A stretch of DNA of 34,220 bases from Acidobacteriota bacterium (lineage in GTDB: Bacteria; Acidobacteriota; Terriglobia; Acidiferrales; UBA7541). This document shows, piece by piece, positions 18,548 through 23,844 of this stretch. The DNA lies in NCBI GenBank assembly GCA_003223315.1, contig QHYR01000263.1:1-34220 (forward strand), in the 5' to 3' direction. Numbering within the stretch: the stretch's first letter is position 1; each line of letters starts with the position of its first letter. Made by a program: the position numbers and the translations under genes. Under the pieces are notes generated by a model. That model was given only the letters and a program-made list of their open reading frames with translations. It did no database searches and was not told the DNA's origin.

Positions 18548-18640
18548 TATAATGCAGTTGCGTTTGTTGCTCTTGTAAAACCTTTAGATCTGTTTAAAGG
18601 GGCTGCGAGTCCAATACAACTTGCGGCCCCTTTTTGTATT
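18548..18640 (+). ncRNA. Repeated leader RNA, copy 1, upstream of the cold-shock gene
   Basis: An extended -10 (TG-C-TATAAT, 18545-18553) is followed by the conserved leader from 18560. CGTTTGTTGCTCTTGTAAAA (18561-18580) comes first, then CCTTTA (18581-18586), a spacer, and TAAAGG (18595-18600), which runs into a GC-rich terminator hairpin. Two other copies lie at 22808-22900 (plus) and 22472-22546 (minus). The leader ends about 60 bases before the GTG of the cold-shock gene. CCTTTA can pair with TAAAGG, and that pairing uses the first bases of the terminator stem, so the two hairpins exclude each other. It may act as an attenuator, or be released as a short RNA. I cannot match it to a named RNA family from memory. 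Confidence 0.8.
18596..18635 (+). terminator. Terminator hairpin inside leader copy 1
   Basis: A 15-bp stem pairs 18596-18610 (AAAGGGGCTGCGAGT) with 18619-18633, with two G-U wobbles, an 8-base loop CCAATACA, and a T-run at 18631-18635. It lies between the promoter and the cold-shock gene, so it would have to be bypassed for that gene to be expressed from this promoter. Confidence 0.85.
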
Positions 18641-18698
18641 CTGCTGAGGGCGGCTCGAGACGCACCAGATAGCTCAGAAAAAAAGAAGGAACAACTAA

Positions 18699-18902
18699 GT
18701 GAAAGAACAAGGAACAGTAAAGTGGTTCAATGCCAGCAAGGGATTCGGATTCATCCAGCGTCAGTCCGGCGAGGATGTTTTCGTGCACTTCTCCGCGATT
18801 CAAGGAGACGGGTACAGGTCACTCGCCGAGGGGCAAGCGGTCGAATTCGATGTCACTAAGGGTCCAAAGGGCCTGCAGGCAGCGAACGTCACCGCCCTCT
18901 AG
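18699..18902 (+). CDS. Cold-shock protein (CspA family)
   Basis: This is a 67-aa single cold-shock domain, the normal length for the family. It starts with [19 protein letters not shown] (RNP1 region KGFGFI at about 14-19) and continues with [11 protein letters not shown] (RNP2 VFVHF) and the closing [18 protein letters not shown]. The start is GTG (18699), with AAGGA ten bases upstream. It binds single-stranded RNA or DNA and melts secondary structure; in E. coli, CspA-family proteins act as transcription antiterminators. That is relevant because a terminator-bearing leader lies directly upstream and recurs before two further operons here. An RRM protein gene follows 157 bases downstream, after a strong hairpin. 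Confidence 0.96.
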
Positions 18903-18920
18903 TCCGAACGGGCTTGCAAA

Positions 18921-18955
18921 GTTTCCCATCCCCGGGTCTGCCGGGGATGGGAAAC
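18921..18955 (+). terminator. Strong perfect hairpin after the cold-shock gene
   Basis: A 15-bp perfect stem pairs 18921-18935 (GTTTCCCATCCCCGG) with 18941-18955, with loop GTCTG, 18 bases after the cold-shock stop codon. No T-run follows (ACAATTTA), so it is either a weak intrinsic terminator or an RNA-stabilising 3' structure separating the short csp message from the RRM gene. Confidence 0.6.
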
Positions 18956-19059: not shown

Positions 19060-19449
19060 ATGAAGAACTTGTTTGTAGGCAATATGAGTTTTCAAACGAT
19101 GGAAAGCGACCTACGCGCCCTCTTCGAGCCTTTCGGGCAAGTCACGCGCATCCACATCGTGAGCGATCGGGAAACCCACCAGCCACGAGGATTCGCTTTC
19201 GTCGAAATGGCCAAAGACGATGAGGCCGCTAAGGCGATGAGTGAACTTAACGGAAAAGAAGTGGCCGGCCGCGCCCTGCGGGTCAACGAGGCCACTCCGA
19301 AGCCGGAACACAGCGGTCCCCGCGGCAACAGCGGTTTTGGCTCACGGGGCGGCGGGGAGAAAAGAGGAGGGGGCCCACGGGGTCGCGGCGGATTTTCGAC
19401 TGAGGATTATCGTGGCGCCGCCCGCCAGCCCAAAGAACCGCGCTGGTAA
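19060..19449 (+). CDS. RRM RNA-binding protein with RGG-rich tail (first of three)
   Basis: This is a 129-aa protein with one RNA-recognition motif at residues 1-80: RNP2 is LFVGNM (about 4-9) and RNP1 is RGFAFVEM (about 43-50). The tail (about 85-129) is rich in Gly and Arg, with several RGG/RG repeats (SRGGGEKRGGG, PRGRGGF), like eukaryotic glycine-rich and cyanobacterial cold-inducible Rbp proteins. AGGAG lies upstream of the ATG. It is followed 63 bases later by a 55-aa basic protein gene. The same two-gene pair is repeated in mirror orientation at 20345-19737. It probably binds RNA under cold or stress; the role is inferred from family and the cold-shock neighbour. Confidence 0.95.
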   Translation: MKNLFVGNMSFQTMESDLRALFEPFGQVTRIHIVSDRETHQPRGFAFVEMAKDDEAAKAMSELNGKEVAGRALRVNEATPKPEHSGPRGNSGFGSRGGGEKRGGGPRGRGGFSTEDYRGAARQPKEPRW

Positions 19450-19512
19450 CTTCGTGAAGCGCCGCGAGCTGCAACCGCACGCTTCATAATCCTGTCCGCT
19501 AGAGGAGAATCG

Positions 19513-19680
19513 ATGAGCATCACCTTCCAGAAGCGCCAAAAAGAGATGAAGCGATTGGAAAAGCAACGTGCCAAAGCGGAGCGACGCGCGCAGAGGAAAG
19601 TTGCCAAGCGAGCAGCCACTGAAAACCCCGAAAACAATCCAACCCTAAGTACACCTCAGCCTGAAGAAGATGCGAGATAG
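19513..19680 (+). CDS. Small Lys/Arg-rich helical protein (55 aa), paralogue of the 19895 gene
   Basis: This is a short gene with an excellent ribosome binding site (GAGGAG, 19502-19507) ahead of ATG 19513. The product begins MSITFQKRQKEMKRLEKQRA and continues with alternating Lys, Arg, Glu and Ala (KAERRAQRKVAKRA), which predicts one long charged alpha-helix, then a Pro/Asn/Glu-rich acidic tail. Its first 33 residues are nearly identical to a 52-aa protein encoded on the other strand at 19895-19737, and each follows an RRM gene. That conservation supports it as a real gene. The function is unknown; nucleic-acid binding, or partnering with the RRM protein, is inference. Confidence 0.82.
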   Translation: MSITFQKRQKEMKRLEKQRAKAERRAQRKVAKRAATENPENNPTLSTPQPEEDAR

Positions 19681-19736
19681 GTCTGCGCGCCTGCCCCGCT
19701 TGTCGCCCCCCGGTTCAACCAAATCCAGTAAGTTAC

Positions 19737-19895
19737 TCATGGCTCTGACCTAGCGGGAACCGATACGGTCTCTGCCTGCGCTTCGTTTTCCGCGTTCCTG
19801 GCTATTTTTTTCTGGGCGCGGCGCTCGGCCTTCAGACGCTGCTTCTCCAGCCGCTTGACTTCCTTTTGGCGCTTCTGGAACGTAATCCTGCTCAT
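19737..19895 (-). CDS. Small Lys/Arg-rich helical protein (52 aa), paralogue of the 19513 gene
   Basis: ATG at 19895, preceded by AGGAG (19905-19909), and a stop at 19737-19739. The product begins MSRITFQKRQKEVKRLEKQR and continues KAERRAQKKIARNAENEAQ, a charged helix followed by a short Val/Pro/Ser tail. It matches the 55-aa protein at 19513 through the FQKRQKE-KRLEKQR-KAERRAQ core, with a one-residue insertion near the start and a different tail. It follows the RRM gene 20345-20034 by 138 bases on the same strand and converges with its paralogue across 56 bases. The function is unknown; RNA or ribosome association is possible given the charge, but not shown. Confidence 0.82.
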   Translation of the reverse strand: MSRITFQKRQKEVKRLEKQRLKAERRAQKKIARNAENEAQAETVSVPARSEP

Positions 19896-20033
19896 TACGA
19901 TCTCCTGAAATCGGGATTGAACTGCGCGAACAGAACTGCGAGATACGGGACGAGAAAGTCCGGCAGGATTGTCTCACGCCTGGAGCCTACCAGCGAGGTT
20001 CGCTTGGCCTTCGGGCCGATTCGCTTCCTTAGT

Positions 20034-20345
20034 TCAAAATCGGTCGCGTCCACCTCTACCGCTGTTCCGATTTTCGCCGCCGCGTGAACCGCCGCGCTCC
20101 GGCCTGGGTGTGGCTTCGTTCACCTTCAAGGCGCGTCCGGCAACTTCTTTCCCATTCAAAGCAGATATTGCCTTGGTCGCTTCGGCATCATCGGCAATCT
20201 CCACAAACGCAAATCCCCGAGGCTGCCCGGTTTCACGGTCCGTCACGATGTGAATACGCGTGATCTGTCCGAATGGCTCAAACAGCGCGCGCAGGTCGCT
20301 TTCCGTAGTCTGAAAACTCATGTTGCCGACAAACAGGTTTTTCAT
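20034..20345 (-). CDS. RRM RNA-binding protein with short RG-rich tail (second of three)
   Basis: This is a 103-aa protein starting at ATG 20345 (AAGGAG upstream). The RRM, residues 1-80, is nearly identical to the one at 19060: [23 protein letters not shown]1 RGFAFVEI, and [22 protein letters not shown]. The tail ([19 protein letters not shown]) is shorter but still Arg/Gly rich. The gene begins 33 bases after the sigma-factor stop, so it probably belongs to the sigma-factor operon. It is part of a mirror-image duplication with 19060-19680. Cold-inducible RNA binding is the likely role, by family. Confidence 0.95.
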
Positions 20346-20378: not shown

Positions 20379-22079
<1,701 letters not shown>

Positions 22080-22099
22080 AGGGCCTCCGTTTCGTTCCT

Positions 22100-22420
22100 T
22101 TAGTCTTGCCGTTGTTTCTGAAAGTAGCTCCCCGACTTGGGCCTGTTGTGAGTGTTGTAGTCGGCCAACTCCAAATCGGTAACGCAAAACTGCGTTGTGG
22201 AGAGATCAATTGCGTTGGCGGCGAGTTCGCGACGGAGTCTCAACGAACAAATAATGGGTCCGTCCTGATACCGCGCTCGATGGGACACGAATGCTTCGTT
22301 TTCGATCGTCACGGTGTAGTCGCGAGGCCGGCCGGATTCATCACGAACAACAAAGCTGTATTCGCGAACCACAGCGCCAGCCGTGAAGCCAACGTACTGT
22401 ACGGTAATCTGGTCAGCCAT
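22100..22420 (-). CDS. 106-aa protein of unknown function, first gene of the sigma-factor operon
   Basis: This is a small soluble protein with no signal peptide. It begins [20 protein letters not shown] and continues [35 protein letters not shown], a pattern of alternating hydrophobic residues suggesting a beta-rich fold. Then come [20 protein letters not shown] and a charged C-terminus ending KQRQD. I do not recognise a family. GGAAG precedes the ATG. The gene lies about 50 bases after the hairpin of leader copy 3 and 20 bases before the proposed start of the sigma factor. An anti-sigma, RNA-related or other regulatory role is conceivable only from position. Confidence 0.75.
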
Positions 22421-22471
22421 TTGTATGCTTCCGGGCGATTTCGGCTTCTCGAACGCCCTGAGCCGAAAACA

Positions 22472-22546
22472 TAAAGGGGCCGCGAGTTGTGTCGGCTCGC
22501 AGCCCCTTTAAACGAATCCAAAGGTTTTTACAAGTGCAACAAACGC
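22472..22546 (-). ncRNA. Repeated leader RNA, copy 3, upstream of the sigma-factor operon
   Basis: On the minus strand from 22546: GCGTTTGTTGCACTTGTAAA, then CCTTTG paired potentially with TAAAGG, then the terminator hairpin (22509-22473), then the 106-aa gene 52 bases further on. It differs from copy 2 in the 5' block by a single base (GCACTT for GCTCTT). The -10 is less clear than in the other copies (TAAGAT at 22553-22548 is only one base from the conserved block). The preservation of sequence and spacing in both orientations argues for function as RNA. Confidence 0.78.
22473..22509 (-). terminator. Terminator hairpin inside leader copy 3
   Basis: A 14-bp stem, AAAGGGGCTGCGAG against CTCGCGGCCCCTTT with one U-G wobble, closes a 9-base loop. 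The T-tract is interrupted (TTTATGTTTT), so termination may be weaker than in copy 1. It stands between the leader and the first gene of the sigma-factor operon. Confidence 0.75.
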
Positions 22547-22807
22547 AATCTTATTTTCTCATATATCCGGCTGTGGCGCACATCGAATTCTCCGTGGCGG
22601 GTTCCCGAAGATAACGCCGCTGTTCGCACCTTTAAAGCCGTGCAGATGTGGGCGGCTCGTTCCCCAGTGGGCGGGCCGAATGCTCTCAGGCGTTGAGACG
22701 GGGACGCTTCGGCAATGAGTTCTCGGCGTGATGAACTCGCTTGCATCGGATCAGATTTGCTTCAGGCTTCCCGTCACATTCCGCGTCAGCGCCATCCGTT
22801 ACTGTGC
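22547..22807. promoter_or_regulatory. Divergent spacer between leader copies 2 and 3
   Basis: These 261 bases separate two leaders that point away from each other, so this is a divergent promoter region for the sigma-factor operon and the 79-aa gene operon. I see no supported gene here. An AT-rich patch (ATTTTCTCATATATC, 22553-22567) marks the minus-strand promoter area, and the extended -10 TGCTATAAT at 22805-22813 ends the region on the plus strand. Confidence 0.5.
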
Positions 22808-22900
22808 TATAATAACGCCTGCGTTTGTTGCTCTTGTAAAAACCTTTTGATCCATTTAAAGGGGCTGCGAGTCCACACCAACTCGCTGGCCCCTTTTGTG
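22808..22900 (+). ncRNA. Repeated leader RNA, copy 2, upstream of the 79-aa gene
   Basis: TATAAT (22808-22813, extended by TGC) is followed by the conserved block from 22821, GCGTTTGTTGCTCTTGTAAA. CCTTT (22843-22847) can pair with AAAGG (22858-22862), which opens the terminator hairpin. The leader ends about 87 bases before the ATG at 22987. It matches copy 1 over the whole block except for one extra A before CCTTT and changes in the spacer and loop. The promoter hexamer and its distance to the conserved block (6 or 7 bases) are the same in copies 1 and 2. Confidence 0.8.
22858..22897 (+). terminator. Terminator hairpin inside leader copy 2
   Basis: AAAGGGGC pairs with GCCCCTTT and GCGAGT with ACTCGC around loop CCACACCA, with a small internal bulge (T against TG) and a TTTT tail at 22894-22897. 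Compared with copy 1, the inner pair G-U has become G-C, a compensating change that keeps the stem. Confidence 0.8.
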
Positions 22901-22986
22901 TTTTCGGACTCAAAGGAGGGAGACTACGAATTGGCCCGCCAAGGCCTCCTGTAAGCAACCGGTAGAACCAGAGAAAGAGGCACGCC

Positions 22987-23226
22987 ATGAACCCAGCGGA
23001 GAAACACGGTTACCGTGTCGATCGGCTGGTCCGCGAACGATGGATAGTCGAAGAGACGCTGACCCATCTGAAGGCCGCCGCCAGAAAATTGCTGCGGGCC
23101 CATGCGAGTCTGGACCGCATTCGCGCCACTGCCCTGGCGCTGCGCGCAACGTTGAAGATCAAGGACGAACTGGAAAAGCAGCTGGCGGAATCTCATTGCA
23201 CCGTTCAATCTGTCTACCCGCTCTGA
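22987..23226 (+). CDS. 79-aa helical protein of unknown function
   Basis: ATG with AGAGG upstream. The product is almost entirely helical by composition: RVDRLVRERWIVEETLTHLK, then AAARKLLRAHASLDRIRATA and LRATLKIKDELEKQLAES, with heptad-like leucine spacing that suggests a coiled coil. No signal peptide and no recognised family. It is the first gene after leader copy 2, followed 59 bases later by the 86-aa protein and then the third RRM gene, so it is probably part of an RNA- or stress-related operon. The function is not assignable. Confidence 0.72.
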   Translation: MNPAEKHGYRVDRLVRERWIVEETLTHLKAAARKLLRAHASLDRIRATALALRATLKIKDELEKQLAESHCTVQSVYPL

Positions 23227-23285
23227 GTGTTGTTTCACACACACGAGCGATCGTTTTCGTCGCCTGTTAACAAAGGAGGCTCGCT

Positions 23286-23546
23286 ATGAAGGTGATCCCA
23301 GAAGGGCAATACGTTAAACATTATCGCTACGGCATGGGCGTGGTCACCGAGTCCGATACCAAGCAGACTTCCATTGATTTCGACCTCCACGGCCTGAAAA
23401 GATTCGTCACCACCTTGATGGTCGTGGAACTTTCTGACCTCACTCCTCCCCCGCGAGTGCGCGCCAAACACGGCGCCAAGGTCTATGCCCGGCTCGCATC
23501 GAGCAAGGCCGGCGGCAAATCTGCCTCCCCATGCAGAGAAAGGTAA
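23286..23546 (+). CDS. 86-aa protein, probable SH3/Tudor-like fold
   Basis: AAAGGAGG ahead of ATG 23286 is a strong ribosome binding site. Residues 8-50 read YVKHYRYGMGVVTESDTKQT, then SIDFDLHGLKRFVTTLMVVE. The pattern (basic patch, Y-G-x-G-V-V, acidic turn, I-x-F-D, G-x-K-x-F) resembles the small SH3/Tudor-like domains found in UvrD C-termini and similar proteins, which bind RNA polymerase or nucleic acid; this is fold-level inference. The C-terminus is short, basic and Ser/Ala rich. The stop is one base from the ATG of the third RRM gene, so translation is coupled. Confidence 0.75.
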   Translation: MKVIPEGQYVKHYRYGMGVVTESDTKQTSIDFDLHGLKRFVTTLMVVELSDLTPPPRVRAKHGAKVYARLASSKAGGKSASPCRER

Positions 23547-23547
23547 A

Positions 23548-23844
23548 ATGAAAAGCGTTTTTGTCGGCAATATGAATTTCCAGACCACCGAAGCCGATCT
23601 GCGGATCTTGTTCGAGCCTTTCGGTGAGATTGCGCGCATTAACATTGTCAATGATCGAGGCACCGGCCTGCCCCGCGGTTTTGCCTTCGTGGAGATGGCG
23701 GACGATATCGAAGCCGCGAACGCCATCGCCGATCTCAACGGCAGAGAGCTCGCCGGCCGCAGCTTGACAATCAACGAGGAGGCTCCCAGGCTGCAACGCA
23801 GCCGCCCCCGCGGGCGCTCAGATTCCGGCCCTGGTGCCCGATGA
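23548..23844 (+). CDS. RRM RNA-binding protein (third of three)
   Basis: This is a 98-aa protein with one RRM: MKSVFVGNMNFQTTEADLRI (RNP2 VFVGNM), RNP1 RGFAFVEM, and DLNGRELAGRSLTINEEAPR. The tail is short and basic (QRSRPRGRSDSGPGAR) and lacks the long RGG stretch of the 19060 protein. It is more divergent from the other two than they are from each other. The ATG lies one base after the stop of the 86-aa gene. Family and operon context suggest RNA binding in the same stress response as the cold-shock protein. Confidence 0.94.
   Translation: MKSVFVGNMNFQTTEADLRILFEPFGEIARINIVNDRGTGLPRGFAFVEMADDIEAANAIADLNGRELAGRSLTINEEAPRLQRSRPRGRSDSGPGAR

Follow-up and report, generated by a model that had tools for sequence, protein, structure and literature searches.

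Two RRM genes, each followed by a short ORF for a basic helical protein, converge tail to tail in an acidobacterial genome and give the locus the look of a mirror image. The locus raises the questions of whether the short ORFs are genuine genes, whether their place behind RRM genes points to a shared function, and how the mirror image arose. The window, by which we mean the whole analyzed stretch of 34,220 nucleotides, comes from a 4.3 Mb acidobacterial MAG (contig G000:C308). The small gene, the RRM genes and a leader RNA were followed through 61 genomes, with the window's own genome counted in. A literature search found no papers on RRM operons in Acidobacteria.

Two facing operons and a third RRM operon

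All four ORFs of the mirror image lie where an earlier, sequence-only reading had placed them (Table 1). That reading saw the two RRM–small-gene cassettes only. It missed that each of them closes a larger operon, csp-RRM1-sm1 in one case and orf106-rpoD paralogue-RRM2-sm2 in the other, and that both operons begin with a common RNA leader. A third RRM operon (22820-23844, plus strand) has the order leader C, 79-aa ORF, 86-aa ORF and RRM3. Its two ORFs have no Pfam match and are both kept in a congener (G003, L186), and no small gene was found after RRM3. A protein similar to orf106 is encoded immediately after a leader in another genomic locus (L321).

Table 1. Features of the two facing operons and of the third RRM operon, in window coordinates
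Feature	Position	Strand	Evidence or remark
Predicted -10 box TATAAT	18548-18553	+	5 nt upstream of leader A; sequence
Leader RNA A, before csp-RRM1-sm1	18559-18639	+	R1 model 90.3 bits, E 5.4e-16; copy in R1 training set
Parts of leader A: invariant 5' block TGCGTTTGTTGCTCTTGT, then terminator-like hairpin, then T run	hairpin 18596-18633	+	
csp, cold-shock domain protein, first gene after leader A	18699-18902	+	PF00313 E 1.7e-31
RRM1, Gly/Arg-rich linker, C-terminal FSTEDYRGAARQPKEPRW tail	19060-19449	+	PF00076 E 1.6e-22; NF058537 105.5 bits; tail conserved in relatives
Shine-Dalgarno AGAGGAGA of sm1	19501-19508	+	sequence
sm1, 55-aa basic helical protein, acidic variable tail	19513-19680	+	ORF, selection, AlphaFold
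sm2, 52-aa paralogue of sm1	19737-19895	-	ORF, alignment, selection
RRM2, RRM1 paralogue without EPRW tail	20034-20345	-	PF00076 E 2.9e-24; NF058537 110.2 bits
Second RpoD-type sigma factor, upstream of RRM2-sm2	20379-22187, start codon uncertain	-	TIGR02393 386.4 bits
orf106, 106 aa, between leader B and rpoD	22100-22420	-	without Pfam/NCBIfam match
Leader RNA B, before orf106-rpoD-RRM2-sm2	22467-22547	-	R1 83.7 bits, E 1.5e-14; in training set
Leader RNA C, before third RRM operon	22820-22901	+	R1 77.8 bits, E 2.7e-13; in training set
79-aa ORF of third RRM operon	22987-23226	+	
86-aa ORF of third RRM operon	23286-23546	+	
RRM3, third RRM gene in window	23548-23844	+	PF00076 E 4.2e-21; NF058537 93.9 bits

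RRM1 and RRM2 pass the curated cut-off of 100 bits for NF058537 (Rbp_regulator), and RRM3 falls below it. The motifs LFVGNM and RGFAFVE are readable in the RRM sequence, and RNA binding through RNP1 and RNP2 is predicted. The RRM domains had been described as almost identical, which overstates the 79% identity of RRM1 and RRM2 over 100 aa. Paired RRMs within the family end in a near-invariant C-terminus (...FSNEDYREAARQPREPRW). It is kept in RRM1 and was lost from RRM2 as well as from the congeneric orthologues of RRM2.

The sigma factor upstream of RRM2 scores above the TIGR02393 cut-off of 354 bits. It cannot be taken for the canonical housekeeping RpoD of the genome, as a copy of canonical type on another contig (G000:C267) scores higher (414.6 bits, the best score). 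A second rpoD is linked to the RRM gene and the small gene in many relatives.

The cassettes had been interpreted as a mirror-image duplication. The inversion is present in the DNA, with inverted arms of 267 nt (75%) and 91 nt (76%), but the cassettes are no fresh duplicates; they are old paralogues from two different operons. An RRM-domain tree places RRM1, RRM2 and RRM3 each nearest to its own orthologues in the congeners G001 and G003, and the genus-level group that encloses the three and these orthologues has moderate support. Synonymous sites are saturated in the RRM1/RRM2 and sm1/sm2 comparisons and unsaturated between congeners. This saturation, together with the moderately supported locus-wise grouping of orthologues, rules out a recent duplication or gene conversion of the cassettes. 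The tail-to-tail layout was seen in this genome only, apart from a reduced version (L044) in which a convergent rpoD-small gene pair lies opposite csp-RRM, one RRM and one small gene fewer than in the window. In two congeners, csp-RRM1 was not seen adjoining the rpoD locus. From these sequence comparisons, the mirror image appears as the juxtaposition of two old paralogous operons. The conserved feature is the gene order inside each operon, not the tail-to-tail placement.

A conserved small gene behind RRM genes

Of the 61 genomes searched, the window's genome included, 36 have homologues of the small ORF, and many class-level relatives carry the gene. Almost all named loci with the small protein belong to Acidobacteria, namely to subdivision 2, the Acidiferrum type and Terriglobia. 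One contig labeled Betaproteobacteria (L089) bears an acidobacterial RRM–small-protein pair and is probably mis-binned. The homologues share the core TFQKRQKEMKRxEKQRxKAERRAQ and an acidic variable tail. Their start is conserved, and almost all have an AGGAG-type Shine-Dalgarno sequence a few bases upstream of it. The median dN/dS of 0.18 (602 pairs) indicates purifying selection, and third codon positions are the most variable (entropy 1.30 vs 0.58). sm1 and sm2 are 67% identical over 46 aa and differ by 5 amino-acid changes, where 13.3 are expected from random substitutions. AlphaFold predicts for sm1 a single helix (residues 3-37, core pLDDT about 90) and a loose tail.

A chance or untranslated ORF might be suspected from the shortness of the frame and from the lack of a fitting curated family. 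Given the purifying selection, the conserved Shine-Dalgarno sequence and start, and the broad occurrence, this is hardly credible. With homologues in 36 of 61 genomes and codons under purifying selection, the inverted pair is far beyond chance. The small ORF is a genuine, conserved gene, as the sequence-only reading had supposed.

The protein belongs to no family that we could name. Searches of Pfam, NCBIfam and PDB sequences gave no significant match, only isolated weak ones. Its identity with the ribosomal protein bS21 is ruled out by profile comparison with 13 S21 relatives (HHalign probability 0.3%, E 0.24) and by the absence of a Pfam match to PF01165; the genome has a genuine bS21 of its own (G000:C33). 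A homologue from another class found no match among PLSDB plasmids, nor did sm1 among INPHARED phages.

Since both cassettes keep the two-gene order, the small protein had been thought to work with the RRM protein. A search beside RRM genes in other genomes carries this order well beyond the window: 32 of the 40 small genes in the 61 genomes start 134-339 nt downstream of a same-strand RRM domain. In addition, a set of 141 partly overlapping loci holds 115 RRM–small-gene adjacencies. The pair, on the other hand, is not obligatory. All 32 paired RRMs belong to a high-scoring class, in which 32 of 67 members are followed by the small gene. None of the 58 lower-scoring RRMs is, which rules out the small gene as the obligatory partner of every RRM. 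It is also missing after the csp-RRM1 of two congeners and from a congeneric rpoD-RRM locus (L187); the genomes of this close group are mostly draft MAGs, in which absences may reflect assembly gaps.

The small gene has other neighbors as well. It stands right after rpoD with no RRM between (L035, L044, L053), right after csp (L199), and after DEAD-box RNA helicase genes whose carriers belong to different families (L114, L203, L128). All of these are likewise RNA or expression genes. In some loci of other classes it stands apart with no RRM nearby, and in one genus of another class it is solitary and has a DPDIAGIVPGPQPLP tail. Homologues from other acidobacterial classes (L118 to L141) often end in a conserved tail of this type, and many have no RRM nearby. 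Conversely, bS21 occupies the slot after the RRM in two class-level relatives, G046 and G044 (L192, L193). We conclude that the RRM–small-protein pair is conserved, not obligatory.

These placements bear on what the small protein may do. It could be a ribosome-associated, S21-like helper that is co-regulated with RRM genes and does not act on the RRM protein. Such a role would suit its basic helix, the presence of bS21 in the same slot in two relatives, and the copies that follow rpoD, csp or helicase genes or lack an RRM nearby. RRM genes are, however, by far its commonest neighbors, it has no homology to bS21, and the genome already encodes that protein. We regard an S21-like helper as rather unlikely, though it deserves to be taken seriously. 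Passive pairing, in which an ancient operon was retained by common descent and its two proteins are functionally unlinked, strikes us as distinctly improbable. Block inheritance is possible within the order, and the leader and the operon context vary between loci, but the pair is kept in several contexts (after csp, after rpoD and alone) with different flanking genes, and it is also found in other families and classes. The reading that we favor is a small protein that assists the RRM protein.

An uncatalogued leader RNA

Alignment of csp upstream regions yielded an invariant block and a hairpin. Together they form a leader of ~80 nt, in which the invariant 5' block lies at the predicted transcript start and is followed by a covarying, terminator-like hairpin. 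The window holds three copies of the block, against a chance expectation of none: one ahead of csp-RRM1-sm1, one ahead of orf106-rpoD-RRM2-sm2, and one ahead of the operon that ends in RRM3. A covariance model (R1) built from 32 copies, leaders A, B and C included, finds the leader in 43 of the 61 genomes, with four copies in the window's genome. Elsewhere in the phylum the leader is scarce by the same model (5 of 247 genomes, the window's included).

The leader repeats up to six times per genome, in sense orientation relative to the downstream gene. In 66 of the 76 copies checked the next gene is csp, mostly 50-100 nt away. The remaining copies include ones that precede rpoD and RRM operons, a DesA-like desaturase gene, a TypA/BipA GTPase gene or orf106. 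The loci with leaders before DesA-like fatty-acid desaturase and TypA/BipA genes are L014, L045, L325 and L322, and both are plausible cold genes; the DesA-like protein scores 99.6 bits, under the family cut-off of 400.

Seven of the 11 stem pairs covary, with 47 both-side changes vs 15.5 in shuffles, a count from an alignment that was fitted to the model and is hence biased towards structure. A MAFFT alignment gives the same picture (6/13 pairs covary). A T-rich run follows 61 of 65 clear stems. Upstream, 58 of 76 copies have a TANNNT box at a distance of 11 nt from the block, and 67 of 76 have one within 9-12 nt. A -35 element of TTGACA type was considered for the csp promoter and dropped: the candidate, TTGACC, stands a mere 11 nt ahead of the -10 box, and congeners do not share it. 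The -10 box is the one promoter element that we claim. The conserved hairpin with its U run, placed between the promoter and the first gene and maintained by compensatory changes, has the form of a terminator-type cis-regulatory leader.

The hairpin has the form of an intrinsic terminator and could simply end transcription of the upstream gene. Its position close behind a fixed -10 box and the invariant block, the regular placement of csp behind it at short distance, and its multiple sense-oriented copies per genome all speak against this, and we consider such a role very unlikely. The reading as a regulatory leader is the one that we carry forward.

No Rfam family matches the leader. The cspA thermoregulator RF01766 reaches 48.7 bits over 18551-18954, under its gathering score of 78 bits; most of this span is csp coding sequence, and a scan of the leader region by itself gives no match to the family. 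By comparison with Rfam 15 and a limited, non-exhaustive search of open papers, the leader is an uncatalogued conserved RNA that covaries and precedes cold-type genes. Most RRM–small-protein pairs outside csp- or rpoD-linked loci have no leader detected nearby, which makes pair and leader separable from each other.

A possible cold-responsive scheme and known systems

We propose, with reasonable if far from complete confidence, that the window holds two RNA-chaperone operons, probably cold-responsive, that share a leader, and that the small basic protein acts as a helper of the RRM protein on RNA or the ribosome. Transcripts of both operons are predicted to start at the 5' block of the leader and would run through the terminator-like hairpin before the first gene, and the genes of each operon would be co-transcribed. 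The leader would hold expression down by ending or slowing transcription, and cold would lead to more read-through or to stabilization of the transcript. The position and form of the leader suggest control at the terminator or of transcript stability, and cold or translation stress is suggested as the signal because the leader accompanies csp, desaturase and TypA/BipA genes. Release from such attenuation would yield the small protein together with an RRM RNA-binding protein and either a cold-shock protein or a sigma factor. With its ~35-residue K/R/E-rich helix and acidic tail, the small protein may bind to RNA or to the ribosome alongside the RRM protein, as its physical partner.

Cold-shock proteins could themselves feed back on the leader. 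E. coli CspE melts intrinsic terminators (PMC7858274), whereas CspB and CspD, major cold-shock proteins of B. subtilis, favor termination, not antitermination (PMC8307031). The sign of any csp feedback may therefore go either way.

A more far-reaching version is possible, and we put it forward tentatively for the Acidobacteria of this order. The leader would be a new cold-shock class that co-regulates csp, the alternative RpoD, the RRMs, the desaturase and TypA/BipA, and the small protein would be a dedicated RRM partner in a two-protein RNA chaperone.

Several known systems resemble parts of this arrangement. Sato and co-workers reportedly described cyanobacterial rbp-rpsU (S21) pairs, in which an RRM gene is followed by a gene for a small basic helical protein. 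RRM-bS21 pairs of this kind occur in this phylum too, in the two relatives with bS21 in the slot, but the small protein studied here is not S21 by profile comparison. In E. coli, the operon order is rpsU-dnaG-rpoD, and rpoD likewise has as neighbors genes for small proteins that bind RNA or the ribosome. The rpoD of the window differs in being a second paralogue, and its partners are an RRM gene and the small protein gene. The cold-box type of 5' UTR control known for csp in E. coli (cspA) and in B. subtilis (cold shock boxes) similarly combines a conserved 5' block with structure, although the leader described here differs from them in sequence and in its architecture of a block followed by a terminator-like hairpin.

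Among bacterial RRM proteins, Rbp1/RbpA of cyanobacteria and RbpB of Bacteroides have a single RRM, as here, and Rbp1 has a Gly-rich C-terminus, as do the RRM proteins of the window. Rbp1 is required for cold adaptability in cyanobacteria, and its 5' UTR carries cold-response boxes (PMC9333190). RbpB is a global RNA-binding protein (PMC11697453). In contrast to these Rbps, the acidobacterial RRMs mostly have a ...QPREPRW tail and are then followed by the small protein. This tail (19396-19449, plus strand, and in relatives) resembles the PDPRWA motif of cyanobacterial type II Rbps (PMC9333190). The likeness is a resemblance only, and the two may share a short motif.

Little is understood so far about RRM proteins in bacteria, and one clade of them can now be assigned a partner gene that is conserved beside it. 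The small protein clearly suggests itself for a new family model, and the leader for a new Rfam entry. The common leader defines a concrete candidate regulon of csp, the RRM–small-protein pair, the RpoD paralogue, the desaturase and TypA/BipA, in a dominant and hardly cultivated soil phylum. It suggests a way in which these bacteria may sense cold or translation stress without the known types of csp leader.
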